Source: Xanthomonas sp. NCPPB 1128 (GTDB taxonomy: Bacteria; Pseudomonadota; Gammaproteobacteria; Xanthomonadales; Xanthomonadaceae). From it: DNA of 64,000 nt. Positions 9,640 through 46,469 of this stretch are shown one piece after another. The position numbers and the translations under genes are program-made. Position 1 is the stretch's first letter; each line of letters opens with the position of its first letter. A model generated the notes under the pieces. The model did not search any database. It was not told the origin of the DNA and worked only from the letters and a program-made list of their open reading frames with translations. The DNA lies in assembly GCF_001043115.1 (NCBI RefSeq), contig NZ_LFME01000003.1, positions 62,001 through 126,000 on the forward strand, read 5' to 3'.

Positions 9640-10662
9640 ATGACCACCAGCGACACCACCATCCTGTCCATGGACCAGGCCACCGCCCTGGTCGAGCGCA
9701 TCCTCTCCCACGCCGGCTTCAGCCCGCCGCACGTGCAGGCCCTCACCCACACCATCGTCGCGGGCGAACGCGATGGCTGTGCTTCGCACGGGCTGTACCG
9801 GACACTTGGCTGCGTGGCGACGCTGCGCAACGGCAAGGTGGTGGGCGACGCCGAGCCTGTCGTGCACGACCATGCGCCCGGCATCGTCCGGGTCGATGCG
9901 TGCGGCGGGTTTTCGCTGCTGGCGTTCGAGCGTGGGCTACCGCTGTTGATCGAGAAGACCCGTGCCAATGGCCTGGCGGCGCTGGCGATCAACCAGTGCG
10001 TGCACTTCTCCGCGCTATGGCCGGAAGTCGAACGCATCACCGAGGCCGGTCTGGTCGCGCTGATCTGCAATCCCAGCCATGCCTGGGTCACGCCGGCCGG
10101 CGGGCGCACGCCACTGCTGGGCACCAACCCGCTGGCGTTCGGCTGGCCGCGTGTGGACGCGCTGCCCTTCGTGTTCGATTTCGCCACCAGCGCGGTGGCG
10201 CGCGGCGAGATCGAGCTGCGCCGCCGTGCCGGCCAGCCGATTCCCGAAGGCTGGGGCGTCGACGCGGCGGGCGCGCCGACCACCGATCCGGCCGCGGTCG
10301 CCGACGGCGGCGCGATGCTGACCTTCGGCGGGCACAAGGGTTCGGCGCTGTCGGCGATGATCGAGCTGATCGCCGGCCCCTTGATCGGCGACCTCACCAG
10401 CGCCGAGTCGCTGGCCCACGACGCCGGCGCCGGCGCGGCGCCCTATCATGGCGAACTCATCCTGGCGCTGGATCCGGCGCGCTTCCTCGGCGCCGACCGG
10501 GCCGCGCATCTAGCCCGTGCGGAAGCCTTTTTTGCGGCCTACGAGGCCACCGGTGCGCGCTTGCCGTCGCAACGCCGTTACCAGGCGCGGGAACGCAGCC
10601 AAAGAGAAGGCGTGCGGATTCCGCACGCCCTGCATCAGGATCTGCAGGCCTTGCTCGATTGA
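9640..10662 (+). CDS. Delta1-pyrroline/piperideine-2-carboxylate reductase-type NAD(P)H oxidoreductase (Ldh2 family)
   Basis: A 340-residue member of the malate/L-lactate/ureidoglycolate dehydrogenase (Ldh2/ComC) superfamily, which has its own non-Rossmann NAD(P) fold. Seen: the catalytic-His motif ASHGLYR (about residue 51), the GTNPLAFGWPR segment, FDFATSAVARGEI, and FGGHKGSALSAMIEL near residue 230. These last features and the length match bacterial pyrroline/piperideine-2-carboxylate reductases, which act on cyclic imines such as those from trans-3-hydroxyproline or D-lysine. I choose ATG 9640 (MTTSDTTILSMDQA) since the longer frame from 9511 adds an unconserved leader. It stands alone on the plus strand, convergent with a TonB receptor. 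The neighbouring hydroxyproline genes make an imino-acid substrate likely; exact specificity is inferred. Confidence 0.75.
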   Translation: MTTSDTTILSMDQATALVERILSHAGFSPPHVQALTHTIVAGERDGCASHGLYRTLGCVATLRNGKVVGDAEPVVHDHAPGIVRVDACGGFSLLAFERGLPLLIEKTRANGLAALAINQCVHFSALWPEVERITEAGLVALICNPSHAWVTPAGGRTPLLGTNPLAFGWPRVDALPFVFDFATSAVARGEIELRRRAGQPIPEGWGVDAAGAPTTDPAAVADGGAMLTFGGHKGSALSAMIELIAGPLIGDLTSAESLAHDAGAGAAPYHGELILALDPARFLGADRAAHLARAEAFFAAYEATGARLPSQRRYQARERSQREGVRIPHALHQDLQALLD

Positions 10663-10717
10663 AGGGCGCCGCTAGTCACCCGCTTTGCCGGGACTCGGCG
10701 GGACACGGCGTTGTCGT

Positions 10718-10784
10718 GTAGGAGCGGCTTCAGCCGCGACAAGCATCACCGTTAATGCCGCGTCGCGGCTGAAGCCGCTCCTAC
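10718..10784. repeat. Palindromic intergenic repeat, copy 1
   Basis: GTAGGAGCGGCTTCAGCCGC begins at 10718 and its exact reverse complement ends at 10784: two 23-base arms around a 21-base centre. Copies 2 and 3 lie at 32102 and 49959. The rest of the 318-bp gap 10663-10980 between the convergent genes holds nothing I can name. The repeat probably forms a hairpin at the convergent transcript ends. Confidence 0.85.
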
Positions 10785-10980
10785 GAGTGGCCTTCCGTCT
10801 TTACCGGGTACGCGGCGCAATCGTGTAACGCGCCGCGCCAGATGCAGCAGCCAACCCGCGCAATCCGCACGCCGTGCTTGCTCAACGCCAACGGTGCAGA
10901 ATCGCATCAACCGAGCGTACCGCGGCGAGCTCCACCGCCACGGCACTGTCATCCGCTCGCCTGTGCAAACAGACCCCGAC

Positions 10981-13854
10981 TCAGAACTTCACCGTCGCCC
11001 GCGCCCAGTAGTAGCGGCCAAGCAGGTCGTAGGTGGCCACGTCGGTGTTGGCGTTGGTGACGTTGTTGGCGTAGTACAGCGGTGGCTGGCGGTCGGCCAG
11101 GTTGTCCACGCCGACTTCGAAGCGCGTGTTCCACGGCTTGACCTGATAGCCCAGCTGCACGCTGTGATAGACGTAGGTACCGATGTCGCGGACCACGGCG
11201 GGCTGGTCGGCATCGGCCGACAGGCTCTGGCGGGTATCGGCGCTGCCGATCTCGGTGCGGCCGATGTAGCGGACGCGCCACGACGCGCTCCAGTCCCCGA
11301 GGTTCCAGTTCAACGTCCCCAGTGCGCGCCAGCGCGGGAAGTTGCCGTAGGCGTAGGTGTACTTGCCGGCATTGTGGATGGTGACGGTGCTGGCGTCGGT
11401 GGTGTCGGGGTTGATGTCGTAGCGGATCACGTAGGTGCCGTTGAGGCCGGCGCTGAAGCTGCCCCAGGTGGTGTCCGGCAGGCGGTAGTTGAGGCTGAAG
11501 TCCGCGCCGCTGGCCCACAGCTTGCCGAGGTTCACCGTCGGCTCTGCGATGTAGTTGACGGTGCCGTTGTCGTTGCGGTGGATCAGCGCGCAGAACGCAC
11601 TGGCGTCGTTGGCGTAGCACTGGTTGAGCACGGTCTGCGCAGAGACCTGGGTGATGGTGTCCTTGAGGTTGATCTTCCACAGGTCCGCGCTCATCGACAG
11701 GCCCTCGACCCAGCCCGGGTCGTAGACCACGCCGAAGTCGTAGGACATGCCGGTCTCCGGCTTGAGCTGGTAGCCGGCCACCGCGGCGCCGGAGGCCTTG
11801 GCCCCGACCTGGTTGTCGGCCTGCTGGTAGCTGCCGTCGGTGGGCACATTGGCGCAGGCCGCGGCATGGCCGCCGGTATAGCCGTTGCACGGATCGGTGA
11901 CCGACGGCGAGTCGCCTGCCACGCCGGCATACAGTTCGCTGATGTTGGGCGCGCGGAACACCTGCGAGGCGGTGCCGCGCAGCAGCAGGTTCTCGATCGG
12001 GCGGTACTCCAGCGAGACCTTGCTGTTGGTCTTGCTGCCGACGGTGTCGTAGTTGGAGAAGCGGGTGCCCACGGTCAGGTTGAGCGAGTGCACGCCGGGC
12101 AGGCCGGCCAGCAGCGGGAACAGCGCTTCGGCATAGGCTTCCTTGACGCTGAAGCTGCCGCCGAGCACGGAAGCGCAGTACTCGAGCACGCCGCACATGC
12201 CGTTCTCGTCGCCGGTCCACAGCGGATCGGCGGCGGTGCTGGTGCTTTCCTTGCGATAGGAAACGCCCACTGCCAGGCTCGCGGTGCCGGCAGGCAGCGC
12301 GAACAGCTCGCCATTGGCATTGGCCTCGAACTGCTTGAGCGTGTAGACGTTGGTGACGATCGGGTTGACCACCAGCGCTTCCAGCGCGGCCTTGTTGCTG
12401 GCGGCGTTGAGGTTGAACACGTCGATCGGGGTGCAGCCGGCGATCACCGCGCCGGCGCTGCCGCACTTGACCGTGCCGTCGGCGGCGAGGAACGACGGTC
12501 CCACCGCGGCATTGAAGCCGGCGTAGTCGAGGAAGCCCTGGTTGATCGACTTCTGCTTGACCTTGCCGTAGTTGAGGCTGGCATCCCACTGCCAGGAACT
12601 GTCGCCGAAGCTGCCACGCAGGCCCGGATTGATCTGGAAATTGTAGGTGTTGTACTGGTATTGCCGGTTTCCGAGCACCGTGGCGCGCGTATTGAAGTTG
12701 TTGTACGAGGTGCCGGTGCTGCGGTCGGTGCCGAAGTTGACCCCGAACGGGTTGTAGTAGCTGGCGGAGGAGACCAGGAAGTTGTCGCCGTTGGCGAAGA
12801 TCGGGATCGGCGCGATGATCGAGGACGAAGTCGTCTTGCTGAAATAGGTGTTGACGTAGCCTTCCAGGTGATCGCTGAAGCGGTAGCTGCCGAGCACGAA
12901 GGCGTTGGTGCGCTCCTGCGGAGTCTGCAGCAGGTTGAACGGCTGGTAGTTGTAGGAATCGGTCGAGGCGACGTAGCAGTGATACTGGCTGGCGTTGGTC
13001 GGGCTGCTGCCGCCGTTGAAGGTGACCCGCGAACACCCGTTGCGCGCCGCCAGCGCCTTGGCCGCGGCCGAGCCGTCGTTGAAGCTGATGCTGCCGGTCG
13101 GCGTGGCCGAGGAGCCCTGCTTCACCCCGACGCCGTCGATCAGCGACAGCGCATCCTTGGAATAGGCGCGCTCGCCGGCCGAGACCGGGTCGATGTCGTG
13201 ATAGGACAGGCCGGCGACGATGCTGCCGCGCTCGCCAGTCGTGCCCGCGGTCAGCGAGAAATTGCGGCGGTTGCCGTCGCTGCGCGAACTGGTGCCGAAG
13301 TCGGCGCTGGCCTCGACGCCGTCGAAGCCCTTGCGCAGGATGAAGTTGACCACCCCGCCGATCGCGTCCGAGCCATACACCGCCGAGGCGCCGTCGCTGA
13401 GTACTTCCACCCGCTCGATCATGATCGCCGGGATCGCATTGACGTCGTTGCTGGCCAGGCGCGTGCCGTTGACCAGGACCAGGGTGCGCTTCTCGCCGAG
13501 GCCGCGCAGCGAGATCACCGAGGCGCCGGTGCCGCCGCCGTTGTTGGTGTTCGGGTTGGTGGCGTTGCCGGCGATCGACGGCAGTTCCTGCACCAGGTCG
13601 CCGAGCGTGGCCTTGCCGGTGGCTTCGATCTGCGCGCGGCTGATGGTCACCACCGGGTTGGCGGTCTCGGTGTCGACGCGGCGCAGGCGCGAGCCGGTGA
13701 CCACGATGCTGTCCAGGGTCTGCGTGGCGCTGTCTGCGCTCGCCTCCTGCGCCTGCGCCGTTGCCGCGCTGCCCAGCGACAAGACGGTGGCGACCGCCAG
13801 CGCCAGCGGCGTGGCGGCATGACGGAAAGAGGGACGTGGCGACGAAAACGACAT
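10981..13854 (-). CDS. TonB-dependent outer-membrane receptor 1
   Basis: A 957-residue receptor. A signal peptide (residues 1-35, ending TAQAQ) is followed by the TonB-box-like DSIVVTGSRLRRVDTETANP. The plug domain contains RTLVLVNGTR and VERVEVLSDGASAVYGSDAIGGVVN. A 22-strand barrel follows and ends in Phe (RATVKF), the usual BamA recognition end. There is no STN domain and no SusD partner. Start ATG 13852-13854 has AGGAG (complement of 13862-13866) seven bases upstream. The protein should import oligosaccharides or glycopeptides. Its location beside the arabinosidases and the shared upstream element at 14182-14223 suggest arabino-oligosaccharides or Hyp-glycopeptides. The substrate is inferred, the receptor call is firm. 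Confidence 0.93.
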   Translation of the reverse strand: MSFSSPRPSFRHAATPLALAVATVLSLGSAATAQAQEASADSATQTLDSIVVTGSRLRRVDTETANPVVTISRAQIEATGKATLGDLVQELPSIAGNATNPNTNNGGGTGASVISLRGLGEKRTLVLVNGTRLASNDVNAIPAIMIERVEVLSDGASAVYGSDAIGGVVNFILRKGFDGVEASADFGTSSRSDGNRRNFSLTAGTTGERGSIVAGLSYHDIDPVSAGERAYSKDALSLIDGVGVKQGSSATPTGSISFNDGSAAAKALAARNGCSRVTFNGGSSPTNASQYHCYVASTDSYNYQPFNLLQTPQERTNAFVLGSYRFSDHLEGYVNTYFSKTTSSSIIAPIPIFANGDNFLVSSASYYNPFGVNFGTDRSTGTSYNNFNTRATVLGNRQYQYNTYNFQINPGLRGSFGDSSWQWDASLNYGKVKQKSINQGFLDYAGFNAAVGPSFLAADGTVKCGSAGAVIAGCTPIDVFNLNAASNKAALEALVVNPIVTNVYTLKQFEANANGELFALPAGTASLAVGVSYRKESTSTAADPLWTGDENGMCGVLEYCASVLGGSFSVKEAYAEALFPLLAGLPGVHSLNLTVGTRFSNYDTVGSKTNSKVSLEYRPIENLLLRGTASQVFRAPNISELYAGVAGDSPSVTDPCNGYTGGHAAACANVPTDGSYQQADNQVGAKASGAAVAGYQLKPETGMSYDFGVVYDPGWVEGLSMSADLWKINLKDTITQVSAQTVLNQCYANDASAFCALIHRNDNGTVNYIAEPTVNLGKLWASGADFSLNYRLPDTTWGSFSAGLNGTYVIRYDINPDTTDASTVTIHNAGKYTYAYGNFPRWRALGTLNWNLGDWSASWRVRYIGRTEIGSADTRQSLSADADQPAVVRDIGTYVYHSVQLGYQVKPWNTRFEVGVDNLADRQPPLYYANNVTNANTDVATYDLLGRYYWARATVKF

Positions 13855-14343: not shown

Positions 14344-16758
14344 TCACACCGGGATCAACCAGCCGCCGAACAGCGGGCCGGCGGTGTCGCCGTGCTGCGG
14401 TTCGATGCGCACGGTCAGCGGCTGCGCATCGCGGGTCAGCGCCGGTGGCAGCGGATAGTCGCGGTTGACGAAATCGATCACCTGGCCGCGCTCCACCGCC
14501 ACTTCCACGGCCAGTTTCCCATTGACCAGGATGTTGAAGCGGCCCTTGTCGCTGCCCCAGAAGCGCAGGCGCAGCGCCAGCGGCTGCGCGCTGCCGCGCA
14601 TGCGGAACTCGACGAAGCCCTTGCCGCGCACGTCGCGGCACTGCTGGCGGCGGTAGGCACCGCCGAAGGAGGTATCGCTGCGCAGCTGATGGGCCTGCTC
14701 GGAGGCCTCGTCGCCGAACTGGATCATGTCCACCGCGGTCGCGCGCAGGCTGTCCTGCTCGGCCTGGCGACGCGCCCGCTGCTGCGCCTCCTGCGCCCAC
14801 TGCGCGGGCCCCATGCGCTTGAAGTACAGCGCGCTGCGCCGCTCGTACTGTGCGTAGAACGGCACGAAGGTCAGGCCCGGCGGCTGCGTGCTGTTGGACA
14901 GGAAATGGCCGGACTGCGGCAGCTCGGCGAAGCCGCGCAGCGGATCGGCCGCGGCCACCAGCGCCGGGTCCGGCGCATCGTAGGGCGTACTCACCGGCCC
15001 CAGGTCCGCGGCCAGCGCCAATGGCCCCCGCATCACCACCACCGTGTCCGCGTCGCCTGCGGCGTGCTCCAGCCGCAGCGGCGTGGCCAGGTCCAGGTCG
15101 ATGACGTCGCCAGCGCGCCAGGCGCGCTCCAGCGTGAGGTAACCATCCGCCAGCGCCGCGTGTGCCGGCTTGCCGTTCACGCGCAGGGTGTAGCGGCCCT
15201 GGCACCAGGCCGGCACCCGCAACAGCAGCCGCCGCGGCGCGCGCGCGCCGGCGCGCAGCACCTGCAGGCGTACCTTGCCGTTGTCGGGTACGCCGCTGTC
15301 GAGTTCCAGCGCCAGGTCGCGCTCGCTCCACTCGAGCTGCGAGGGAATGTAGAGATTCACGTACAGCGAGGTGTCGTCCTGCCAGTAGATCGCGTCGCCG
15401 AACTGCGCATGCGCTTCCATGCCGCTGCCCACGCAGCACCAGAACGAATCGAACTTGTCGGAGAAGCCGCGCTCGCCGCCGCTGATCATCGGCGTCATGT
15501 AGGTGAACATGCCGGTGGCCGGGTGCTGCGCGGCCATGGTGTGGTTGTGCAGCGTGCGCTCGTAGTAGTCGAAATAGCGCGCCTGCGGCGTCCACTGGTA
15601 CAGGTGCCGGGTCAGCTTGAGCATGTTGTAGCTGTTGCAGTGCTCGCAGGTCTGCTCGGTCAGGAACGCGGCGATGGTGTCCGGCTCCTGGAAGTATTCG
15701 CGGTCGGCGTTGCCGCCGATCACGTAGCTGTAGTGCGCGGTCACCGTTTCCCAGAAGAAGCGTGCCGCCGCGGCCGCATCGGCATCGCCGGCGACCTCGA
15801 ACTGGCGCGCCTCGCCGATGAACTTGGGCACCTGGGTGTTGGCGTGGATGTGCGGCAATGCATCGCGCCCGGCCGCGGCGGGGTCGATCACCTTCTCGTG
15901 GCGCAGGCGCTTGCCGATGGCGATCCAGCGCGCATCGCCGGTGCGCGCGCCGAGTTCGATGTAGGACTCGTTGAGGCCGCCGAACTCGGTGTCCAGCAGG
16001 GTCTGCATCTGCGCATGGTCGAGCGCGTCGAACACCCCGGCGGTGTAGGTAGCCAGCGGCAACAGCACCGCCAATGCCTGCGTGCTGCCAGCCAGTGCAT
16101 GCGCGTCGAGCAGGCCTGCGAACAGCTTGTGCTGGGTGTACAGCGGCGACCAGCTGCCGTTGAGGTTGAACTTGCTGCCCTTGATGATGCCGCGGCGCAC
16201 GTCCTCCAGCACCGCCTTGCCACCCTCGATCGCGCCCGCGTCGGTCTTGCGGGTGAAGCCGCCGACGTAGCCGTCAGGGTCCTGCGCCTGCGCGCGCGCC
16301 AGCTCGGCGACGATGTAGTCGATGCGCTCGCGCAGCACGGGATCGCGGGTCTGCGCGTGCATCTTGGACAGCGCGCTGAGGTAGTGACCCAGCGTATGGC
16401 CGGCGATGGTGTCGCCCTCCCAGCCGCCGTACACCGCGCCCTTCGGCGGCAGGCCGGCGTACTGCAGGAAGTTGTGCAGCAGGCGGTCCGGCTCCAGTTC
16501 CAGCAGGTAGCGGCGGTTGGTCTGCAGCGAATCCAGGAACAACGACGGCTTCAGCGTGACCTGCTGCAGGGGCAGCGCCTGCACCCGCCCGGGCGTGGAC
16601 GCGGCGGCGTCCAGCGGGAAGCGCAGCAGCCCGGCGGCCACCGCCAGCGCACTCCATTGCAGGAAGCGGCGGCGCGAGGGATCCAATGCGTCGCCCGTCG
16701 CGTCGGCGCCGCCATGCGCGCACGCGGCGCTGTGCCGATGCACGCCGTGCCCACTCAT
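14344..16758 (-). CDS. Tat-exported GH127/GH146-type beta-L-arabinofuranosidase
   Basis: An 804-residue enzyme expected to remove terminal beta-L-arabinofuranose, for example from Hyp-linked arabino-oligosaccharides. A twin-arginine signal SRRRFLQWSALAVAAGLL (residues 29-45) indicates folded export. The catalytic (alpha/alpha)6 domain holds the cysteine/zinc centre of the DUF1680 clan: Glu372 and Cys374 in CEHCNSYN, then Cys441-Cys442 in FWCCVGSGME, matching the Glu-x-Cys...Cys-Cys set of characterised GH127 enzymes. Beta domains follow to the end (GPLFGGWLIPV). The longer size favours GH146-like members. I take ATG 16756-16758; an in-frame ATG at 16803 is the alternative. It is 252 bp downstream of the GH43 gene and has its own copy of the shared element. 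Confidence 0.87.
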   Translation of the reverse strand: MSGHGVHRHSAACAHGGADATGDALDPSRRRFLQWSALAVAAGLLRFPLDAAASTPGRVQALPLQQVTLKPSLFLDSLQTNRRYLLELEPDRLLHNFLQYAGLPPKGAVYGGWEGDTIAGHTLGHYLSALSKMHAQTRDPVLRERIDYIVAELARAQAQDPDGYVGGFTRKTDAGAIEGGKAVLEDVRRGIIKGSKFNLNGSWSPLYTQHKLFAGLLDAHALAGSTQALAVLLPLATYTAGVFDALDHAQMQTLLDTEFGGLNESYIELGARTGDARWIAIGKRLRHEKVIDPAAAGRDALPHIHANTQVPKFIGEARQFEVAGDADAAAAARFFWETVTAHYSYVIGGNADREYFQEPDTIAAFLTEQTCEHCNSYNMLKLTRHLYQWTPQARYFDYYERTLHNHTMAAQHPATGMFTYMTPMISGGERGFSDKFDSFWCCVGSGMEAHAQFGDAIYWQDDTSLYVNLYIPSQLEWSERDLALELDSGVPDNGKVRLQVLRAGARAPRRLLLRVPAWCQGRYTLRVNGKPAHAALADGYLTLERAWRAGDVIDLDLATPLRLEHAAGDADTVVVMRGPLALAADLGPVSTPYDAPDPALVAAADPLRGFAELPQSGHFLSNSTQPPGLTFVPFYAQYERRSALYFKRMGPAQWAQEAQQRARRQAEQDSLRATAVDMIQFGDEASEQAHQLRSDTSFGGAYRRQQCRDVRGKGFVEFRMRGSAQPLALRLRFWGSDKGRFNILVNGKLAVEVAVERGQVIDFVNRDYPLPPALTRDAQPLTVRIEPQHGDTAGPLFGGWLIPV

Positions 16759-26032: not shown

Positions 26033-26075
26033 GCGTCTTGTCGTATTTATCGGGAAAACGTGCGGAATACCGCAC
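26033..26075 (-). promoter_or_regulatory. Shared bipartite element, site C (upstream of TonB receptor 2 operon)
   Basis: GCGTCTTG (26033-26040), 19 bases, GTGCGGAA (26060-26067). Here the second half is the best palindrome of the set: GTGCGG-AATA-CCGCAC (26060-26075), which is TGCG-N6-CGCA at its core. It is about 250 bases upstream of the receptor start in a 333-bp gap (25784-26116) that shows no other feature. Confidence 0.68.
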
Positions 26076-28633: not shown

Positions 28634-28942
28634 CTACGCGAGCACGTCGAGCAGGCTGCCGATGCTGTCGTCGGCCGCGCGCAGCACGCGCGCATTGGCC
28701 TGGAACGCGGTGCGCTCGGTCAGGGTGCCGACCATGTCGTCGACCAGATCGCTACCCTGCATGTCGGCCTGCTGCACCTGGCCGACCACGCCGCCACCGG
28801 CGCTCGCCTGGTTCACCGGCACGGAACGCTGGAAGCCCTCGGTGGCAAGGTTGGCGATGTTGTTGGCACGCACCTGCAACCCGGACGCCGCCGCGCGCAT
28901 GCCGGACAGCGCGATCGAGGAAGTGGGAGCGATGGCGGTCAT
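28634..28942 (-). CDS. Orphan flagellar rod/hook-like short protein (FlgC/FlgG-type ends)
   Basis: A 102-residue protein with the N-terminal flagellar axial-protein signature SSIALSGMRAAASGLQVRANNIANLATEGFQ and a C-terminal amphipathic helix DDMVGTLTERTAFQANARVLRAADDSIGSLLDVLA. Rod and hook proteins pair these two ends. At this size it resembles a minimal FlgC/FlgB-like protein lacking the central domain. No other flagellar structural gene is nearby, although cheW and chemoreceptors occur at 56-60 kb. It lies 150 bp upstream of the glycosidase gene, on the other side of shared element D. It may be a real minor rod protein or a domesticated duplicate. Confidence 0.7.
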   Translation of the reverse strand: MTAIAPTSSIALSGMRAAASGLQVRANNIANLATEGFQRSVPVNQASAGGGVVGQVQQADMQGSDLVDDMVGTLTERTAFQANARVLRAADDSIGSLLDVLA

Positions 28943-32188: not shown

Positions 32189-32207
32189 CACACATACACG
32201 CAACGGG

Positions 32208-38244: not shown

Positions 38245-39453
38245 TCAGGCGAACGGCCGGTCGATCGCCGGCGACGGCGGCGTGAACCACTGCGCACCGT
38301 CTTCGGTGACGTAGAAATGATCCTCCAGGCGCACGCCGAATTCGCCTGGCACCACGATCATCGGCTCGTTGCTGCAGCACATGCCCGGGGCCAGCGCCAG
38401 CGCATTGCCGCGCACCAGGTAAGGCGCCTCGTGGATGCTCATGCCACAGCCGTGGCCGGTGCGGTGCGGCAGCCCCGGCAACTGGTAGTCCGGGCCGAGT
38501 CCGGCGCGCTGCAGCACCTTGCGCGCCGCTTCGTCCACCACCGCGCAAGCCACGCCCGGCCGCACCGCGGCGAACGCCGCCGCCTGCGCGTCGTGCTCCA
38601 GTTGCCAGATGCGCCGCTGCTTCTCGCTGGGCTCGCCGAAGATGTAGGTGCGGGTGATGTCAGAGTGGTAGCCCTGCACCGTGCAGCCGGTGTCGATCAG
38701 CACCAGTTCGCCCGGCCGCAGCGCCTGCACGCCGGGGATGCCGTGCGGATATGCAGTGGCGTGGCCGAACTGCACGATGCAGAAGGTCGAGCCGTTGTCG
38801 GCGCCGAGCGCGCGGTGCGCCTGGTCGATGAAGCGGGTCAGTTCCGCGGTGGTGATGCCCTCGCGGACCAGCCCGGCCGCCAACCGCTGCACCTGCAGGG
38901 TCATGTCGCAGGCCTGCTGCATCAGCGCCAGTTCCGCCGGCGACTTGCGCATGCGGCAGCCGTCGACGATGGCCGCCGCATCGCGGATCGCGATCCGTCC
39001 CAGCACCGCCGCCAGCCCGGTGTGCACCGCGAAGGCCACGCCCGGGTCCAGCGCCAGGCTCTGCGCGTCCAGTTCCAGCAAGGCCTCGGCGACCAGCGCG
39101 TGCGGATCCTCGTGTTCCTGCCACAGGCGCTTGCGCACCGGCACAGACAGCACCGCGTCCAGCGAGCCTTCCTCGAACGCCGGGCAGATCAGCAGCGGAT
39201 CGCCTTCGGCGGTCAGCAGCATCGCCACCAGGCGCTCGCTGGCGCCCCACGGCACGCCGGTGAAGTAGCGCAGCGAGGCGCCGGCGCCGATCAGCACCTC
39301 GCCGGCGCCGTGCGCGCGCATCAGCGCACGCGCGTTGGCCAGGCGTTGCCGGTACTCCTGCTCCTGGATCGCAGGCGCCAGCTGCGGCCACGGCGCCAGT
39401 TGTGCGTGCGCCTGCTCCAGGGTCAGTCCGCCGATCTGGGGTTGCTCGCTCAT
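38245..39453 (-). CDS. M24 family Xaa-Pro aminopeptidase/prolidase-like metallopeptidase
   Basis: A 402-residue cytoplasmic protein with a creatinase-like N-terminal domain and a pita-bread catalytic domain. The five metal ligands are visible: Asp in LIDTGC, Asp in YHSDITRTY, His in GHGCGMSIHEAP, Glu in CSNEPMI and Glu in VRLEDHFYV. It would bind two metal ions and split imido bonds before proline or hydroxyproline (Xaa-Pro, perhaps Xaa-Hyp). Its ATG overlaps the stop of the aldehyde dehydrogenase by ATGA, placing it inside the hydroxyproline operon and tying peptide breakdown directly to imino-acid catabolism. No signal peptide. Confidence 0.9.
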   Translation of the reverse strand: MSEQPQIGGLTLEQAHAQLAPWPQLAPAIQEQEYRQRLANARALMRAHGAGEVLIGAGASLRYFTGVPWGASERLVAMLLTAEGDPLLICPAFEEGSLDAVLSVPVRKRLWQEHEDPHALVAEALLELDAQSLALDPGVAFAVHTGLAAVLGRIAIRDAAAIVDGCRMRKSPAELALMQQACDMTLQVQRLAAGLVREGITTAELTRFIDQAHRALGADNGSTFCIVQFGHATAYPHGIPGVQALRPGELVLIDTGCTVQGYHSDITRTYIFGEPSEKQRRIWQLEHDAQAAAFAAVRPGVACAVVDEAARKVLQRAGLGPDYQLPGLPHRTGHGCGMSIHEAPYLVRGNALALAPGMCCSNEPMIVVPGEFGVRLEDHFYVTEDGAQWFTPPSPAIDRPFA

Positions 39454-41039
39454 GCGCGCGGCTCCACGTCGGCGGTCGTCCAGCAGCCGTCGATCAGCCG
39501 CTGCACGCTGCCGGGATTACGGTCGCGCAGCAGCGCCGGCAGCAGCGCGTCGGGCACGCCGTCGTAGCTGTGCAGCGCGGCGAAGCGGCGGATCGCCGCA
39601 GGCATGCCGACGGCCGTGAAGCCGGGATGGCCGGTGCTCGGATACGGGCCGCCATGGTTCATCGCCGGGCTCACTGCCACGCCGGTCGGCATCTTGTTGC
39701 AGATCAGGCGCCCCACCCGCGGGCGCAACGCCGCGGCCAGCGCGGCGAAGGCCGGATCGTCGCTGCCGTCGGCGGCGCGATAGATCGTGCCGGTGAGATT
39801 GCCCTCGAAGCTGCGCGCCAGGGCGGTCAACTGCCCCAGCCCGCCGCGCACGATCAGGCTGACCGGGCCGAACGCCTCGGTCTGCAGCGCTTCGGGCTGC
39901 TGCAGGAACGCCTCGGCCGACACCTCCAGCAGGGTCGGCGCATGCCGATAGCCAGGGCCGGCATCGGCCTGGCCGCCGGCCAGCACCGCGGCGCCGGCAT
40001 CGCGCAGCGTGGCCACGCTGCGCTGCAGGTGCTCCAGCACGCCGCGCGAGAACAGCAGAGACGGCGCGGCCCCAGCGAAATGCGCAGTGGTCGCGGCGAC
40101 GAAGGCATCGCCGGCCTCGCCCTTGGGCACCACCACGATGCCGGGATTGGTGCAGAACTGGCCGCTGCCCATGGTGCAGGAGGCGAAGAACTCCTGCGCC
40201 AGCGCCGCGCCGCGTTCGGCCAGCGCGCCCGGCAGCACGAACACCGGATTGACGCTGGACAGCTCGACGTAGGCCGGCACCCCGGCACGGTCGACGGCGG
40301 CCTTCAGTGCCAGGCCGCCGGCGCGGCTGCCGGTGAAGCCGATCGCGCCCAGCCGCGGATCGCCGGCCAGTTCCAGGCCCAGCGTGTTGTCGAAGTGATA
40401 GAGCAACTGCACCGTCGCCGCCGGCAGATCGTTGGCCAACAACGCTTGGTGCGCGAGCTGCGCCAGACGCTGGCTGGTGGCCGGATGCGAGGGATGCGCC
40501 TTGGCGATGACCGGATTGCGCGCGGCGATGGCCGAGGCGAAATCGCTGCCGGCCACCGCGTTGAACGCGAACGGGAAATTGTTTGGGCCGAACACCAGTA
40601 CCGGCTTGTGCAGCGGCCCCAACTGCGCGCGCAGGCCGGCCGCGGTGTCGATCACCGGCTGCGTCCAGCTGTGGCTGCGCGCCGCCTGCGCGGCCTGGCG
40701 CAACTGCCCGCTGGCGCGCGGCAGCTCCACCTTGGCCAGGCGCGGCTCCACCGGCAGGCCGGTTTCGGCATGCGCCAGTGCCACCAGGCGCTCGACGTCG
40801 GCGTCGATCGCGTCCGCATACGCATCCAGGAACGCGGCGATGCGTTCCGGCGCGGCCGCGGCCAGCGCATCGGCGCTCAGCGCCGCCGCGCTCAGCGCCG
40901 CTTCCAGATCGGCGGCGCCGCTGATCGGGAACGACGGACCGAATTCGCTCCCGTCGCGCGGATCCTCGGCGCGGAAGCTGCCGCGCTCTTCCAGCGAGGC
41001 CTGCCAATGGCCGGCCAGCAACAGCGGTTGCATGCTCAT
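39450..41039 (-). CDS. 2,5-dioxopentanoate (alpha-ketoglutarate semialdehyde) dehydrogenase
   Basis: A 529-residue aldehyde dehydrogenase. Catalytic Cys296 is in GSGQFCTNPG, the general base Glu259 in AYVELSSVNP, the cofactor loop in FTGSRAGG, and GPNNFPFAFN is the N-terminal cofactor contact. The SSVNPVFVLPGAL and GSGQFC context is that of the alpha-ketoglutaric semialdehyde branch that uses NADP. The reaction, 2,5-dioxopentanoate to 2-oxoglutarate, is the last step of trans-4-hydroxy-L-proline breakdown and feeds the TCA cycle. Its neighbours are the deaminase one base upstream and the M24 peptidase overlapping downstream. It could also serve arabinose or glucarate routes, but the operon makes the Hyp role clear. 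Confidence 0.92.
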   Translation of the reverse strand: MSMQPLLLAGHWQASLEERGSFRAEDPRDGSEFGPSFPISGAADLEAALSAAALSADALAAAAPERIAAFLDAYADAIDADVERLVALAHAETGLPVEPRLAKVELPRASGQLRQAAQAARSHSWTQPVIDTAAGLRAQLGPLHKPVLVFGPNNFPFAFNAVAGSDFASAIAARNPVIAKAHPSHPATSQRLAQLAHQALLANDLPAATVQLLYHFDNTLGLELAGDPRLGAIGFTGSRAGGLALKAAVDRAGVPAYVELSSVNPVFVLPGALAERGAALAQEFFASCTMGSGQFCTNPGIVVVPKGEAGDAFVAATTAHFAGAAPSLLFSRGVLEHLQRSVATLRDAGAAVLAGGQADAGPGYRHAPTLLEVSAEAFLQQPEALQTEAFGPVSLIVRGGLGQLTALARSFEGNLTGTIYRAADGSDDPAFAALAAALRPRVGRLICNKMPTGVAVSPAMNHGGPYPSTGHPGFTAVGMPAAIRRFAALHSYDGVPDALLPALLRDRNPGSVQRLIDGCWTTADVEPRA

Positions 41040-41040
41040 C

Positions 41041-41946
41041 TCAGTGCCCGGGATGGGTGGCGATGGCGTGGTCGATGACCTTCAGCGCGGCCTCGCGCTC
41101 GGCGCCTTCCAGCACCAGCCGCGGCGCGCGCACGCGCTCGCTGCCCAGGCCGACCTTCTCCTGCACCAGCTTGATCAGCTGCACGAACTTGGGCACGGTG
41201 TCCAGGCGCAGCAGCGGCAGGAACCAGTCGTACAGCGCCTTGGCCGCGGGGTAGCCGCCGTCGCGGGCCAGCTCGAACAGCTTCACCGACTCCTTCGGGT
41301 AGGCATTGACCAGGCCGGCGATCCAGCCCTTGGCGCCCATGCTCAGGCCTTCGACGATCGCATCGTCCATGCCCACCAGCAGCACCAGGCGGTCGCCGAG
41401 CAGTTCGCCCAGCGCGGCGAAGCGGCGCACGTCGCCGGAGGATTCCTTGACCGCCTGCAGGTTCGGGAACTCGGCCGCCAGCTCGGCGATCTGCGCCGGG
41501 CTGAAATCGGTCTTGTAGGCGATCGGGTTGTTGTACAGGATCGCCGGCAGGTCGGTGGCGGCGATCACCGCGCGCATGTGCGCGCCCATCTCGCGCCAGT
41601 CGGTGGAATACACGTACGGCGGTAGCACCATGAGGCCACCGCAGCCGACCTGCTTGGCCGCCTGCGCCAGGCGCACGGCCTCGTCGGTGGACAGCGCGGC
41701 GATGCCCGGCACCACCGGGATGCGGCCGTCGACCGCCTGCACCAGGGTCTTCAGGATCGCCAGCTTGTCGTCGAAGCTCAGCGTGGCCGCCTCGCCCAGC
41801 GAGCCCAGCGGCACGATCGCGGTGCAGCCGGCGTCGACCATCACCTGCGCATGCTTGGCCAGGAACGCGTGGTCGATGCTGCCGTCGGCGTTGAACGGAG
41901 TGGTGATGGCCGGCAGCACGCCGTACCAGAAGGAAGCCTTGCTCAT
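41041..41946 (-). CDS. 1-pyrroline-4-hydroxy-2-carboxylate deaminase (DHDPS/NAL superfamily)
   Basis: A 301-residue TIM-barrel class I aldolase-fold enzyme. The Schiff-base lysine is Lys167 in LQAVKESSGD, with Tyr138 in AILYNNP as proton relay and the GSLGEAATLS loop at about 48-57. In this operon it should deaminate and dehydrate delta1-pyrroline-4-hydroxy-2-carboxylate to 2,5-dioxopentanoate and ammonia. The setting between the dehydrogenase subunits and the semialdehyde dehydrogenase separates it from lysine-pathway DapA. Start ATG 41944-41946 overlaps the preceding stop by ATGA, and the gap to the next gene is one base. Confidence 0.9.
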   Translation of the reverse strand: MSKASFWYGVLPAITTPFNADGSIDHAFLAKHAQVMVDAGCTAIVPLGSLGEAATLSFDDKLAILKTLVQAVDGRIPVVPGIAALSTDEAVRLAQAAKQVGCGGLMVLPPYVYSTDWREMGAHMRAVIAATDLPAILYNNPIAYKTDFSPAQIAELAAEFPNLQAVKESSGDVRRFAALGELLGDRLVLLVGMDDAIVEGLSMGAKGWIAGLVNAYPKESVKLFELARDGGYPAAKALYDWFLPLLRLDTVPKFVQLIKLVQEKVGLGSERVRAPRLVLEGAEREAALKVIDHAIATHPGH

Positions 41947-43313
41947 GGATGTACACCTTGTGGAGAGTTGCGAAGGGATGCCGCGCGCGACGGCGCGGCG
42001 CAAGCGGTGTCCGGACCGGGGTCCGGACAGGGATGGGCCAGCGCGTCCAACCGCGCCGGGAACAGCGGCGGCCGGCGGCCGTCGTCGGAGAAATCGTAGG
42101 CGCGCGCGGCCAGGCCCAGTTCGGTCAGCGCGCTGCCGCAGATGCGGCCCTGGCAGGCGCCCATGCCGCAGCGCGAGGCCAGCTTGGCGTCGCGCAGGTC
42201 GGCATGGCCCTGCAGCGCGGCCAGCGGCACGTCCTCGCAGCGGCACACCAGCGTGTCCGGCGCGGCCAAGGCATGGATCCGCGGGTCCAGCGCGAACTGC
42301 CGCTGCAGCAGCGCGGCGAAGGCGCGCGCGCGGCGTCGCTGCGGCTGCAGCGCCTGCGCATCGGCGTCCTGGCCGGCGGCCAGGTGGCCGGCGATGGCGC
42401 CTTCCACCCGCGCGCAATCGCGCCCGCCGATGCCCAGCGCCTCGCCGGCGGCGTACACGCCGTCCACGCTGGTACGCAGCTGCGCATCCACCGCCACGCA
42501 CGGATGCGCGCCGCTGCGGTCCAGGCGGCAGCCCAGCAGTTGCGCCAGTTCCACGTTCGGCACCAGGCCGTAGCCCACCGACAGTTGATCGCAGGCGAGA
42601 CGGCGGCGCCCGCGCGGCCCGTCGATCTCCACCTCCTGCACGCGGCCCTCGCCGTGCGCGGCGATCACCACGCTGCCGGCGTGGTAACCGACCCCGGCCA
42701 GTTGCGTGCGCAGCGCCAGCGCCTGCAGCGCCTTGTCCGGCCAACGCAGCGGCAGCTGCGCAGCGAAGGCCGCCAGCGCGCGCCACGGCGCCTGTTCGAC
42801 GATGCCCAGCACCTGCGCGCCATGGCGATGCAGCGTCGCCGCCGAGGCCAGCAGCAGCGGTCCGCTGCCGGCGACCAGCACGCGCCGCCCGCGCAGCGGC
42901 CAGCCCTGCTTGGCCAGCGCCTGGGCGCCGCCAGCGCCGGTCACCCCCGGCAGGGTCCAGCCCGGGAACGGCAACAGCAATTCGCGTGCGCCGGTGGCCA
43001 GCACCAGCGCGTCGTAGCCCAGCCAGCGCGGGCCATCGGGACCATCGGTGAGCAACTGCCGGTCCTGCGCCAGCAACACCTGGGTCTGCGGCAGGAACGT
43101 CACCGCGCTGGCTGCCAGCTGCGCCAGCGCGCGCGCGGCCAGGCGCGGCGGCGCGTGGGCGACATCGTGGCGCCAGATCTGGCCGCCGGCACGCGCCTGC
43201 AGATCGACCAGGCCGACGCGGCGGCCATGCCCGGCCGCGGCCAGCGCCGCCGCCAGCCCGGCCGGGCCGGCGCCGATCACCAGTACCTCGTAGTGGGCGC
43301 GCGATTCAGCCAT
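41943..43313 (-). CDS. D-hydroxyproline dehydrogenase, FAD/NAD and Fe-S binding subunit
   Basis: A 456-residue flavoprotein with the N-terminal dinucleotide fold VLVIGAGPAGLAAALAAA, a second Rossmann motif VLVAGSGPLLLASAATL, and the ATG motif VLATGARE. The C-terminal part carries a BFD-like cysteine set, CRCEDVP then CGMGACQGRICG, for a [2Fe-2S] cluster. This architecture is that of the alpha (HcnB-like) subunit of multi-subunit D-amino-acid and opine dehydrogenases. With the two genes directly upstream it should form the heteromeric cis-4-hydroxy-D-proline dehydrogenase that passes electrons to an acceptor other than oxygen. It overlaps the small ferredoxin-like gene by 8 bp and the deaminase by ATGA. 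Confidence 0.87.
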   Translation of the reverse strand: MAESRAHYEVLVIGAGPAGLAAALAAAGHGRRVGLVDLQARAGGQIWRHDVAHAPPRLAARALAQLAASAVTFLPQTQVLLAQDRQLLTDGPDGPRWLGYDALVLATGARELLLPFPGWTLPGVTGAGGAQALAKQGWPLRGRRVLVAGSGPLLLASAATLHRHGAQVLGIVEQAPWRALAAFAAQLPLRWPDKALQALALRTQLAGVGYHAGSVVIAAHGEGRVQEVEIDGPRGRRRLACDQLSVGYGLVPNVELAQLLGCRLDRSGAHPCVAVDAQLRTSVDGVYAAGEALGIGGRDCARVEGAIAGHLAAGQDADAQALQPQRRRARAFAALLQRQFALDPRIHALAAPDTLVCRCEDVPLAALQGHADLRDAKLASRCGMGACQGRICGSALTELGLAARAYDFSDDGRRPPLFPARLDALAHPCPDPGPDTACAAPSRAASLRNSPQGVHP

Positions 43314-43554
43314 CGGTCCACACCTGCATGCCGTCGCGCGCCGGGGTGATGCAGGCGCGCAACTGGCCGACGCGGTCGATGCGTACCCGGCACTCGGCGC
43401 ACACGCCCATGCCGCACAGCGGCGCGCGCGGCTGGCCGCTGCGCGAACGGCGGAAATGCGTGGCGACCTGCGCCACCGCCGCGGCCACGCTGCTGCCGTC
43501 GACCACTTCGACGTCGCGGCCGTCCACCTGCAGGCGCAGCATCCGCGCGCTCAT
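43306..43554 (-). CDS. D-hydroxyproline dehydrogenase, small [2Fe-2S] subunit
   Basis: An 82-residue ferredoxin-like protein. The cysteines in LCGMGVCAECRVRI plus a later Cys in LRACITPARDG form the plant-type C-x4-C-x2-C-x(n)-C set, except that the first positions are compressed as in HcnA/SoxX-like subunits. It should bind one [2Fe-2S] cluster and relay electrons between the two flavin subunits. The start ATG 43552-43554 is fixed by an ATGA overlap with the upstream FAD subunit, and its end overlaps the next gene by 8 bp. Such packing indicates equal-amount synthesis of one complex. Confidence 0.87.
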   Translation of the reverse strand: MSARMLRLQVDGRDVEVVDGSSVAAAVAQVATHFRRSRSGQPRAPLCGMGVCAECRVRIDRVGQLRACITPARDGMQVWTDG

Positions 43555-44651
43555 GCCAGCGCCCGCGCCGGCGCGTACGGCGCCGGGTCGATGGCCGTGG
43601 GCCGCTGCAGCAGTTGGTCCAGCAACAGGCGCGCACTGCCCAACGCCGTGGTCACGCCCAGGCCTTCGTGGCCGGCCGCGACCCACACGTCGCGCCGCTC
43701 CGGCACCGCGCCCAGGTACGGACGCCCGTCCGGCGTGGCCGGGCGCAGGCCGGTCCACACCCGGATCGCCTGCAGTTGCCGCAGGCCCGGCAGGAACGCG
43801 AAGGCGCGCTCCAGCATCCGCTGCAGCATCGGCATCGACACTGCGCGGTCGGTCGCGTCGAATTCGCGCGAGGAGCCGATCAGGATCTGCCCGGTCGGCC
43901 GCGGCTGCACGTTGAACGCCACGCTGCTGCCGTCGCTGCCGTGCGCGCTGTCGGCATAGCCCAGCTCCAGCAATTGATGGGCGACGAAACCCGGATAGCG
44001 GTCGGTGATCACCAACTGCCCCTTGCGCGCGCGCATCGGCAGTTCCGGCAACAGCTCCGGCACGGCGCAGCCGGTGGCGACCAGCACCGGGCCATGCAGC
44101 GCGCTGCCGTCGTCCAGGCGCACACCGGCATCGAGCAGCGCGGTGGCGCGGCGTCCGGCGTACAGCTGCGCGCCAGCGGCGCAGGCGCGCTCGACCAGGT
44201 AGCGCGCCATCCGCGGCGGATACACCACCGCCTCGGCGGCCACGCGCATGCCGCCGGCCAGGCCCGGCACCAGCGCCGGCTCCAGTTGATACAACCGCTG
44301 CGCATCGAGCGCTTCGGCGTGCACCCCGGCCGCGGCCAGGCGCTGGATCTTGGCCGGAATCGCCTCCAGCTCGCGCGCCTGCCGCGCCACCCACAGCGTG
44401 CCGCAGCGGCTGAACTCCGCCTCCGGCAGCGGCGCGAATTCCTCCCACAGGCGCAGCGAATAGGCCGACAACGCCAGTTCCGCCGGATCGTCGTCCATCG
44501 CCACCAGGTGGCCCATCGCCGCGGCGGTGGAACCGCCGCCGATGCTGCCCGACTCGACGATCGCCACGCGCAGGCCGGCGGCCGCCGCCGCATCGGCGCA
44601 GGCCGCGCCGACGATGCCGGCGCCGACGACGATCAGGTCGAAACCGCTCAT
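43551..44651 (-). CDS. D-hydroxyproline dehydrogenase, catalytic DAO-type FAD subunit
   Basis: A 366-residue DadA/DAO-family flavoprotein. The N-terminal FAD motif is [21 protein letters not shown], followed by [13 protein letters not shown]. The C-terminal part carries [14 protein letters not shown] and [19 protein letters not shown], the flavin-proximal motifs of glycine oxidase-like enzymes. It should oxidise cis-4-hydroxy-D-proline to the cyclic imine. The short Cys-rich and BFD-type genes immediately downstream mark it as the catalytic subunit of a heteromeric dehydrogenase rather than a free oxidase. Both ends overlap neighbours by ATGA. Confidence 0.9.
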
Positions 44652-45589
44652 GCGGCGCCGATGCCCCAGGCGAACGGATCCTGCGGATCGATCAGCAACT
44701 GCGTGCGCGCGGTGAGGAAGGCCTGCCCGGTGATGCGCGGCAGCACGCCGCGGGTGCCGGCCGCATAGCTGCCCTCGAACACGCTGCCGAGGATGCCCTG
44801 CTGGCGCCACACCTGGCCCGGCGCCAGCTTGCCGTCGGCAGCCAAACACGCCAGCTTGGCGCTGGTGCCGGTGCCGCACGGCGACCGGTCGTAGGCCAGG
44901 CCCGGGCACAGCACGAAGTTGCGCGCATCGGCGCTGGCGTCCGGCGCCGGCCCGTTGATCTCGATGTGATCGATCTCGCCACCATCGGCGCCGCGGATGC
45001 CGGCCGCCTCCAGCGCCAGCCGCACCGCCTCGGTGTAGGCGGTCAGCGCGCGCTGGTGGCGCAATTCCAGCGCGCACGGCGTCTGCTCGGTGATGAAGAA
45101 CCAGTTGCCGCCCCAGGCCACGTCGCCGCGCACGCGCCCGTACTCGGGCACCTGCACGTCGATGCCGGTGGCATGGCGGTAGCTCTCGACATTGTCGACC
45201 GACACGCGGCCGTCGGCATGCAGTTCCACGCCGACCGTGCCCACCGGCGTCTCGATGCGGTGCGTGCCCGCGCTCAGCCGGCCCAGTTCGGCCAGCGTGC
45301 GCACCAGGCCGATGGTGCCGTGGCCGCACATGCCCAGGTAGCCGACGTTGTTGAAGAAGATCACCGCCGCGCAGGCATCGGCGGCCACCGGCGGCAGCAG
45401 CAGCGCGCCGACCATGGTGTCCGAGCCGCGCGGCTCGCAGGCGATGGCGCTGCGCCAGGCGTCGAAGCGCGTGCGGAACAGTTCACGGCGCTCGGCCAGG
45501 GAACCGGTCCCCAGATCGGGGAAGCCGGAGACGACGACACGGGTCGGTTCGCCGGCGCTGTGCGAGTCGATGACATCGAGTGTATGCAT
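44648..45589 (-). CDS. 4-hydroxyproline 2-epimerase (proline racemase family)
   Basis: A 313-residue enzyme interconverting trans-4-hydroxy-L-proline and cis-4-hydroxy-D-proline, the entry step of the pathway. Both acid/base cysteines are present: Cys88 in GMCGHGTIG and Cys238 in [10 protein letters not shown] Thr at the first position would have meant a trans-3-hydroxyproline dehydratase, so the epimerase reading is favoured. The N-terminal [14 protein letters not shown] is typical of the hydroxyproline branch. The ATG at 45587-45589 ([15 protein letters not shown]) is chosen on conservation; no strong Shine-Dalgarno is visible. It is first in the operon and divergent from the PAS-AraC regulator. 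Confidence 0.93.
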
Positions 45590-45645
45590 GGGGCCATGCT
45601 CACATTCGGCATCGCTGCCGGCTAGCAGCGTTTGCCTGTCGCGAA

Positions 45646-45659
45646 TGCGGAAGTTCGCA
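45646..45659. promoter_or_regulatory. TGCG-N6-CGCA palindrome in the divergent hydroxyproline/AraC promoter region
   Basis: TGCGGAAGTTCGCA, a perfect TGCG/CGCA inverted repeat sharing the TGCGGAA core with sites A, C and D of the glycan block. It lies 56 bases upstream of the epimerase ATG and about 103 bases before the araC-type ATG. A GCGTTTG occurs upstream (45629-45635), but ten bases from ATGCGGAA rather than 19. Candidate operator for the divergent regulator. Confidence 0.5.
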
Positions 45660-45761
45660 CAACCCGGCCACGCCCGACGGCGCCGACTTGAGCTAGCATC
45701 GGCATTCAGGGGACGCGCGGCGGCGCGCCCGCACCGCCGCCCACTTCCGCAGGTGAACGCC

Positions 45762-46469
45762 ATGGACACTCTGATTTCGGCACTGGAACTGCAGACGCTG
45801 TTCGACGCCCTGCCGGACGTGGTGTTCTTCGTGAAGGACCGCGACGGCCGCTACACCCACGTCAACCTGACCCTGGTGCGGCGGCTGGGCAAGAAGTACC
45901 GCGCCGACCTGATCGGCAAGTCGGCCGCGGACGTGTTCCCGCTGCCGCTGGGCGGCAGCTACCTGATGCAGGACCGGCGCGTGCTGTGCGGCGAGGTGAT
46001 CGAGAACCAGTTGGAAGTGCACCTGTTTCCGAACCGCACCCCGGGCTGGTGCCTGACCTTCAAGCGCCCGCTGTGCGAGGGCGAGGAGGTGATCGGCGTG
46101 GTCGGCATCTCCCGCGACCTGGGCCAGCCGGACAGCCGCCATTCCGCCTACGAGCGCATCAGCCGCGCCATGGAGCACATGCAGACGCACTACGGCGACA
46201 ACCTGCGCGTGCAGACCCTGGCCGACCTGGCCGAGCTGTCGGTGGCGCAACTGGAGCGGCACTTCCGCCGCGTGTTCCAGCTGACCCCGCAGCAGTTGCT
46301 GACCAAGATGCGCATCGAAGCGGCGATGCGCCTGCTGCACGGCGACGACAGCATCGCCAGCATCGGCCAACTGTGCGGCTTCGCCGACCAGAGCGCCTTC
46401 GCCCGCCAGTTCAAGGCCACCGTCGGCATGACCCCGCGCGACTACCGGTCGATGAAGGGCAAGCTGTGA
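45762..46469 (+). CDS. PAS-AraC transcriptional regulator of hydroxyproline use
   Basis: A 235-residue regulator. Residues about 8-115 form a PAS domain ([43 protein letters not shown]). Residues about 130-235 form an AraC-type double helix-turn-helix with [20 protein letters not shown] and [21 protein letters not shown] ending [13 protein letters not shown] rather than a cupin sensor is less usual among short AraC proteins. AGGTGA stands five bases before ATG 45762. It is divergent from the epimerase operon, so it most likely controls it, perhaps sensing a pathway compound through the PAS pocket. Ligand and sign of control are unknown. Confidence 0.9.

Follow-up and report, generated by a model that had tools for sequence, protein, structure and literature searches.

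The window analysed here, a stretch of 64,000 nucleotides from the 4.95 Mb genome of Xanthomonas sp. NCPPB 1128 (G000:C3:62001-126000; G numbers denote genomes and L numbers loci or stretches), contains a block of genes that we consider likely to form one regulon for feeding on plant hydroxyproline (Hyp)-rich glycoproteins of the extensin type. Genes were called from codon-position GC and Pfam matches. A sequence-only reading of this DNA had described one locus that strips Hyp-linked arabinan, cuts prolyl peptides and degrades Hyp. Its named parts are all found by Pfam on one strand (GH146, GH43 and GH121 glycoside hydrolases (GHs), two TonB-dependent receptors (TBDR1 and TBDR2), S9 and M24 peptidases), and two DUF885 proteins, a permease, a complete trans-4-Hyp pathway and a neighbouring PAS-AraC gene are likewise present. 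The core genes of the block all lie on the minus strand, and the PAS-AraC gene is divergent.

The Hyp half begins with a 4-hydroxyproline 2-epimerase of the proline racemase family (HypE, 44648-45589; PF05544, 351 bits), which keeps both catalytic cysteines in the motifs MCGHG and SPCGTG; a Cys/Cys rather than a Cys/Thr pair marks 4-hydroxyproline 2-epimerases. Its best structure match is the X. campestris protein 4juu (E 3e-166), listed among 4HypE structures in the accessible part of PMC4113996. There follow three D-Hyp dehydrogenase subunits, namely a DAO-type FAD subunit (43551-44651; PF01266, 220 bits), a 2Fe-2S subunit (43306-43554; PF13510) and a Pyr_redox FAD/NAD subunit (41943-43313; PF07992), then a DHDPS-family pyrroline-hydroxycarboxylate deaminase (41041-41946; PF00701, 204 bits), one of two DHDPS-family genes found in this genome. 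The next gene encodes an aldehyde dehydrogenase (39450-41039; PF00171) which reached no NCBIfam cut-off among the matches listed and is predicted from its position to act on alpha-ketoglutarate semialdehyde. By Pfam, the trans-4-Hyp path is complete, confirming the full epimerase-dehydrogenase-deaminase-semialdehyde dehydrogenase set that had been read from the sequence. From HypE to the M24 gene, adjacent genes overlap by a few bases or lie 1 bp apart, and the arrangement is therefore operon-like; beyond M24 the gaps are about 80 bp to DUF885, about 710 bp to the permease and about 140 bp to S9.

The peptidase genes comprise an M24 Xaa-Pro-type dipeptidase (38245-39453; PF00557, 201 bits) in which no leader was seen, DUF885 protein a (36330-38162; PF05960, 580 bits; 3o0y, E 1e-80) with a lipobox-like leader, DUF885 protein b (34492-36333; PF05960, 535 bits) with a Sec-type leader, and a protein of the S9 prolyl-peptidase family (29753-32065; DPPIV_N and S9 domains) with a signal-peptide-like leader and the serine motif GASAGG. 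An amino-acid permease of the APC family (32208-33779; PF13520, E 1e-44) lies between DUF885b and S9. The PDB relatives of DUF885a bear no functional name, and a peptidase motif of the HExxH type was rejected for the DUF885 proteins, being found in neither. The S9, DUF885 and M24 proteins may be specific for Pro/Hyp peptides.

In the glycan half, the GH121 protein (18606 to about 22940, with an approximate start) is by its sequence a beta-L-arabinobiosidase of the HypBA2 type (6m5a, E 1e-211, 708 bits), predicted to release Ara2 from Ara3-Hyp. It keeps E383, D515 and E713 of 6m5a (in IEGVLGY, GNDADAV and QNEFW), the residues named as essential for HypBA2 in the available text of PMC7263609. 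Downstream in the same operon is GH43, a putative HypAA-type alpha-L-arabinofuranosidase (17011-18609; PF04616, E 3e-34), the start of which overlaps the end of GH121 at 18606-18609; it is 73% identical to the GH121-adjacent GH43 of X. euvesicatoria ATCC 11633 (L080). The third enzyme, a predicted beta-L-arabinofuranosidase (14344-16758; PF07944, 417 bits) with a twin-arginine-like leader, had been labelled GH127/146; the family assignment (PF07944) holds, but the protein is much nearer to 5opj, which we take to be a GH146 entry (439 bits, E 2e-130), than to HypBA1 (3wkw, 60 bits). Its cysteine motifs ETCN and WCCVGSG, which have a catalytic and zinc-binding role, align with those of 5opj, and related motifs occur in 8k7x. 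Genome G186 has two copies, of 90% and 57% identity. TBDR1 (10981-13854) and TBDR2 (22955-25783, start provisional) both match PF00593/PF07715.

Between the two halves lies a gene that is absent from the sequence-only reading, U788 (26117-28483), encoding 788 residues with a twin-arginine-like leader. Sequence searches of Pfam, NCBIfam and PDB gave no match, the sole Pfam trace being a TAT_signal below cut-off. Its structure model (predicted local distance difference test, pLDDT, 76) suggests an (alpha/alpha)6-barrel glycosidase fold, with matches spread over several families. Membership of GH78, GH95, GH65, GH94, GH121 or GH127 was considered and left unassigned, as no family stood clear among those listed. 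Seven acidic residues of U788 (E342, D344, D348, E453, D455, E551 and E646) are invariant. The nearest named relative is from Xanthomonas sp. F10 (96%). Of the 47 loci that could be judged, 46 show linkage between U788 and the Hyp/peptidase operon: same-strand Hyp/peptidase genes lie upstream in 44 of the 47 (those with at least 9 kb of upstream sequence), and two more loci are linked at 25-28 kb. We regard U788 as a protein of predicted glycosidase fold and a frequent partner of this operon, and together with the GHs it may strip arabinose from Hyp. Leaders recognised by eye in GH43, GH146 (RRRFL), U788 (RRDFL), S9 and both DUF885 proteins suggest that these proteins are located outside the cytosol, and M24 inside.

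The PAS-AraC gene (approximately 45762-46469, plus strand; PF08448 and PF12833) probably starts at 45762, since the frame listed at 45348 overlaps HypE. It adjoins HypE in all 22 mapped relatives and in ten of ten further genomes. According to the portions available of two papers, LhpR of Pseudomonas aeruginosa, an activator of the AraC family, binds L-Hyp (PMC6608401) and carries a PAS domain (PMC8694187). By analogy, the window regulator, with PAS and AraC domains and a place beside the Hyp operon, is LhpR-like and would be expected to sense L-Hyp.

The intergenic space between HypE and the AraC gene contains one strongly conserved block, approximately TTGTGCGRANTTCCGCATT. A palindromic operator, approximately TGTGCGGATTTCCGCAT, precedes HypE in every genome read, at 63-68 bp in 23/23 mapped genomes and at 63-66 bp in 10/10 held-out ones; the window copy before HypE and the divergent AraC gene (TTGTGCGAACTTCCGCATT, 45644-45662, minus strand) is the only one in the 64 kb when up to 3 mismatches are allowed. 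With a matrix trained on 13 HypE-AraC spaces only, the second-best site in the 64 kb lies in the U788 promoter (TGCGATTTTCCGCA, 28564-28577, minus strand, about 88 bp from the U788 start; score 15.2 versus 32.9 for HypE), and U788 promoters score 14-24 in 13 of the 15 mapped U788 genomes, the window counted. A further copy (TGCGGAATACCGCA, 26061-26074, no strand assigned) precedes TBDR2 and is found in relatives too. Promoters of GH146 score 24-25 in G170 and G043, that of TBDR2 20 in G043, and those of TonB receptors 21-28 in G016, G091, G028 and G029, all of which are without GH121; the S9 and permease starts of the window have no site by the matrix. A score of 35.7 in the HSP90 promoter of G064 was rejected as an edge artefact.

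A strict pattern (TGCRNWHTWCCGCA), composed after the matrix results on relatives, gave eight distinct sites in the window genome, three of them in the block (the reversed pattern gives two sites). Of 29 genomes searched, G208 was left out; in the other 28 the block holds 61 of the 150 distinct strict sites against 1.5 expected, the genomes being related and hence not independent. In nine genomes used for neither matrix nor pattern, 14 of 44 genome-wide sites are in the block (0.44 expected), nine of them at most 450 bp before HypE or the start of a block gene. The 55 named U788 loci have a strict site before U788 in 30 (at 72-98 bp, once at 185), before TBDR2 in eight and before GH127/146 in five, and 43 of the 49 strict sites found there are no more than 450 bp upstream of a block gene. 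A regulatory site common to the locus is thus found as a sequence feature, with exceptions that are weighed below. The PAS-AraC protein may bind this operator, and may act there as an activator.

An operator-like site of the TCCTGCCGAATTCGGCATTT type (score 14-15) was also seen 370-460 bp upstream of ftsY, close to where the PAS-AraC gene ends, in five genomes of Xanthomonas sensu stricto (G159, G064, G017, G092 and G140); the strict pattern does not match it.

The operator could instead belong to another, global regulator, in which case common control would stand and the Hyp signal would not; we consider this unlikely. The site is a near-perfect palindrome, while many AraC sites are direct repeats, and other operator copies exist in the genomes, including the weaker one before ftsY in five of them. 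Against this, the site keeps its place in the HypE-AraC space at a nearly fixed distance from HypE in all the mapped and held-out genomes mentioned, and the five strict sites of the window genome that lie outside the block have no obviously related target.

The distribution of the two halves was examined in 198 genomes of the family, with HypE counted at E values up to 1e-60 and GH121 up to 1e-30. HypE was found in 40 genomes and GH121 in 19, all of which are among the 40; GH121 without HypE was found in none of the 198, so that the glycan set is nested within the Hyp users. At the genus level GH121 occurs in 5 of 54 genera, all inside the 13 with HypE (about 4 in 10,000 by hand arithmetic, with kinship ignored). 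In the window's own genus group (g1) both are present in 20 of 20 genomes, with GH121 in pieces in G208. Combined, all 30 sampled GH121 genomes have HypE, in 27 of them on the same contig at 20.8-37.2 kb; the remaining three assemblies are in 130-520 contigs.

Gene order was mapped by tblastn in 22 relatives, short and weak MutY matches being disregarded. The common run is HypE-DAO-2Fe2S-PyrR-DHDPS-ALDH-M24-(DUF885)-DUF885-permease-S9, with losses and moves at the far end. Next comes the GH part in those mapped genomes with GH121 that belong to g1, g17 (which we take to be Xanthomonas sensu stricto) or g43, and also in G174. Eight of these 13 genomes, the window not among them, have a second S9 gene (46-50% identical) next to GH43. 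Relatives of TBDR1 lie near U788 in loci of Xanthomonas, Dyella, Luteibacter and Rhodanobacter. When at least 9 kb of downstream sequence was available, GH121 was missing from 8 of 32 named Xanthomonas U788 loci and from 16 of 19 non-Xanthomonas loci. In G208 (L016-L017), GH121 is in pieces with an internal stop and GH43 has no match, while the catabolic Hyp genes are near full length. These patterns suggest first that the GH121-GH43-TBDR2 set is accessory, and secondly that the steadier core is made up of the Hyp operon, U788, a TonB receptor and GH127/146. Independent gain and loss of the halves, which the sequence-only reading had named as evidence that would count against it, is therefore seen in one direction, as the GH121 set is lost alone, and not in the other, as none of the 198 family genomes has GH121 without HypE.

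The losses also bear on whether the block is merely two neighbouring but separate systems, a Hyp/peptide operon and an arabinan locus serving virulence or arabinose supply, with synteny inherited. Several Xanthomonas-type genomes have the block between htpG and ftsY, the GH121-GH43-TBDR2 set is lost alone in the eight Xanthomonas loci and broken in G208, the corresponding GH121 operon of X. euvesicatoria is under HrpX control, and the window genome probably oxidises L-arabinose through a cluster elsewhere (see below). We nevertheless regard separate systems as rather improbable. The linkage between U788 and the Hyp genes holds in Dyella, Luteibacter and Rhodanobacter, and no ftsY match was found beside HypE-AraC in ten named non-Xanthomonas genomes (12.6-14 kb read); linkage away from ftsY and in other genera argues that the genes are not merely fixed neighbours. 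Moreover, the same operator precedes both halves even across contigs: in one Lysobacter genome U788 and HypE lie on different contigs, yet U788 has a site 89 bp upstream, and the HypE site scores 27.6 in G012 (taken to be the same assembly as G218, given the same HypE coordinates). The absence of GH121 without HypE points the same way.

A somewhat less remote alternative, possible although we doubt it, is that the locus scavenges Pro/Hyp-rich proteins in general, of plants, algae or animal collagen; extensin would then be one substrate of several and the arabinan enzymes a later, plant-directed addition. It would suit the many HypE loci that have peptidases and are without GH121, and the restriction of the GH121 set to few genera. 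However, in Dyella, Luteibacter and Rhodanobacter too, the Hyp operon is found together with U788, a TonB receptor and, in most cases, a gene resembling GH127/146, which implies that the glycan part is old in the lineage.

The single regulon for plant Hyp-rich glycoproteins remains the preferred reading. The genes, their linkage, the nested distribution and the shared, conserved operator come directly from the computation; extensin would be the natural substrate. In the proposed scheme, secreted or periplasmic GH43, GH121, GH146 and U788 would strip arabinose from Hyp, and the two TonB receptors would import glycopeptides or sugars across the outer membrane. In the periplasm, S9 and perhaps the DUF885 proteins would cleave the Pro/Hyp peptides thus exposed. 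The APC permease and, in the cytosol, the M24 dipeptidase would deliver free trans-4-Hyp, to be converted to 2-oxoglutarate by HypE, the dehydrogenase with its three subunits, the deaminase and the semialdehyde dehydrogenase. The LhpR-like PAS-AraC protein, sensing L-Hyp, would act at the shared operator before the Hyp operon and the glycan genes. Under such a sensor, the backbone imino acid would switch on the removal of its own sugar coat. On our best reading, the LhpR-like sensor drives both deglycosylation and Hyp catabolism, which would make backbone Hyp a main prize. As a tentative extension, which we hold with less than even confidence, backbone Hyp and not sugar would induce the arabinan strippers, U788 would found a new glycosidase family for Hyp- or Ser-linked sugars of wall proteins, and the orphan HypBA enzymes of Xanthomonas would serve protein scavenging and not arabinose supply.

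Several observations weigh against a single regulon. Of the 40 genomes with HypE, 21 are without GH121, and so are the eight Xanthomonas loci. HrpX controls the GH121-GH43 operon of X. euvesicatoria, according to the available text of PMC6085000. The operator sites before TBDR2 (8.6) and GH146 (8.1) are weak in the window, and with 500 column-shuffled matrices the best non-HypE site also fell in one of five GH/S9 promoters 20 times; because the window alone is weak, the operator case rests on relatives, which share ancestry. By the matrix, G043 and G174 have no U788 site. Strict sites are missing from the block in G174, G028, G214 and G215 and from the whole of G001, and no strict site precedes U788 in 25 of the 55 named loci (one of which has almost no upstream DNA). 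Finally, the site before ftsY, a housekeeping gene, scores about as high as the U788 site of the window. The claim that the two halves form one system has strong support by computation in nested co-occurrence, conserved linkage and, most of all, an operator shared by HypE, U788, TonB-receptor and GH127/146 promoters; it needs amending in that the GH121-GH43-TBDR2 set appears accessory, the block has no genes for using the glycan, and extensin and the peptidase specificity are predictions.

The use of both glycan and imino acid by one system had also been proposed; Hyp use is encoded, but the block encodes no catabolism of arabinose. AraA (PF02610) is absent from 20 of 20 genomes of g1, the group in which it was searched. 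Outside the block, an L-arabinonate-dehydratase-like gene (860 bits versus a cut-off of 882) forms a cluster with neighbouring SDR, LysR, ALDH and sugar-transporter genes, through which the window strain probably oxidises L-arabinose; the notion that this species cannot use arabinose was therefore rejected. The dehydratase is present in nine of nine g1 genomes tested and absent from seven of eight g17 genomes tested, and six of these seven keep GH121 (the dehydratase being the sole arabinose route checked in g17). Arabinose may thus serve as an additional food in some species and be a by-product in others. In G174 the dehydratase gene lies between U788 and S9, so that sugar and Hyp catabolism are physically joined.

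Each half was known before, since the GHs have been characterised in X. euvesicatoria and the X. campestris Hyp epimerase has been solved; what is new is the union of the halves, their common operator and U788, that is, ordinary parts in an unusual union. The lhp operon of P. aeruginosa presumably contains an epimerase, a three-subunit dehydrogenase, a deaminase and a semialdehyde dehydrogenase. A PAS-AraC regulator (LhpR; PMC6608401, PMC8694187) stands beside it, as in the block. In the window, glycosidase and TonB-receptor genes are added to the putative regulon, and peptidase genes to the operon. Bifidobacteria, judging from the excerpt available of PMC5928203, share with the block the use of GH121 and GH127 on Hyp-linked beta-arabino-oligosaccharides, in HypBA1/HypBA2/BauABC and BauT loci under the LacI-type regulator BauR. 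That system is sugar-directed and Hyp catabolism is unnamed in the excerpt, whereas the glycan genes of the block share an operator with Hyp catabolism. Its GPH symporter and GH127 (BauT-HypBA1) resemble a leaderless-looking GH127 and an MFS_2 sugar carrier found behind U788 in G043 and G174. The in silico degradation of Hyp-rich glycoproteins by Latescibacteria is likewise proposed to combine GH127 for extensin arabinose with peptidases in one organism; as far as the available text of PMC4454575 goes, it is a gene inventory, with no single locus, regulon or Hyp catabolism.

The closest precedent is X. euvesicatoria, in which XeHypBA1, XeHypBA2 and XeHypAA (XCV2724, XCV2729 and XCV2728) degrade Ara4-Hyp stepwise in vitro (PMC6085000, as are the following statements, all within the text available). 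Deletion of the enzymes left disease unchanged, the species cannot use L-arabinose, and a prolyl-oligopeptidase gene next to HypAA is broken there. Nakamura et al. 2018 asked why the three Hyp-arabinoside enzymes have been kept and suggested that their usefulness may since have been lost; that text contains neither the word epimerase nor TonB, and no role is reached in it. The GH121 and GH43 types and their order are the same as in the window. A loose scan of the window for a PIP box (TTCGB-N14-16-TTCGB) gave nine matches (three expected), none before GH121 or TBDR2, and PIP-box control of these two genes was rejected. The window GH146 is probably a paralogue of XeHypBA1, as mapped loci of Xanthomonas sensu stricto have a 55-57% identical GH127/146 version at the position of XCV2724, a correspondence drawn from gene order. 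An operator shared with Hyp catabolism would offer a testable answer to the puzzle of Nakamura et al., namely that the enzymes uncap protein food, and joint control could explain sugar-stripping enzymes of so far obscure purpose. Hyp-rich wall glycoproteins would change from a mere barrier to a possible source of carbon and nitrogen, and U788 points to an as yet unknown enzyme family tied to such a diet. In the open-access literature, viewed by titles and abstract beginnings, no report joining the glycan and Hyp halves was found, most subscription journals lying outside this scope.

Some further features of these loci may be mentioned. The span first proposed, 9640..46469, holds as to its gene list and not as to its left edge, where an Ldh_2 oxidoreductase gene lies (9640-10662, plus strand; below every NCBIfam cut-off among the matches listed). 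Within the stretches examined, only three of the 13 GH121 genomes mapped, counting the window, have it near the block, and it is therefore not core; a role as a Hyp-related reductase was rejected, the gene not being conserved with the block. The dehydratase cluster of the window genome (L116, G000:C39:8000-27999) is of an oxidative pentose type, with the arabinonate-dehydratase-like gene, SDR, LysR, ALDH and a sugar-binding protein; in L117 an ABC gene comes next, and a TonB receptor, FecR and a sigma factor adjoin. In G174, a Pseudoxanthomonas (L025, G174:C1:705000-724999), the arabinonate dehydratase, an SDR, GH127 and MFS_2 all lie inside the block. Next to the GH127-MFS_2 pair of G043 is a GH35-like gene with a DUF5597 domain (L022:9353-10999, minus strand), the product of which might act on galactose of wall glycoproteins. 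Between U788 and S9 of the window, an orphan gene (28634-28942, minus strand) encodes a protein of about 102 residues with an N-terminal flagellar rod/hook motif (Flg_bb_rod, E 6e-5), and near-duplicate stretches, seen in translation, occupy about 29080-29434 in the spacer from this gene to S9. The flagellar-like orphan is found in the same place in many Xanthomonas relatives.

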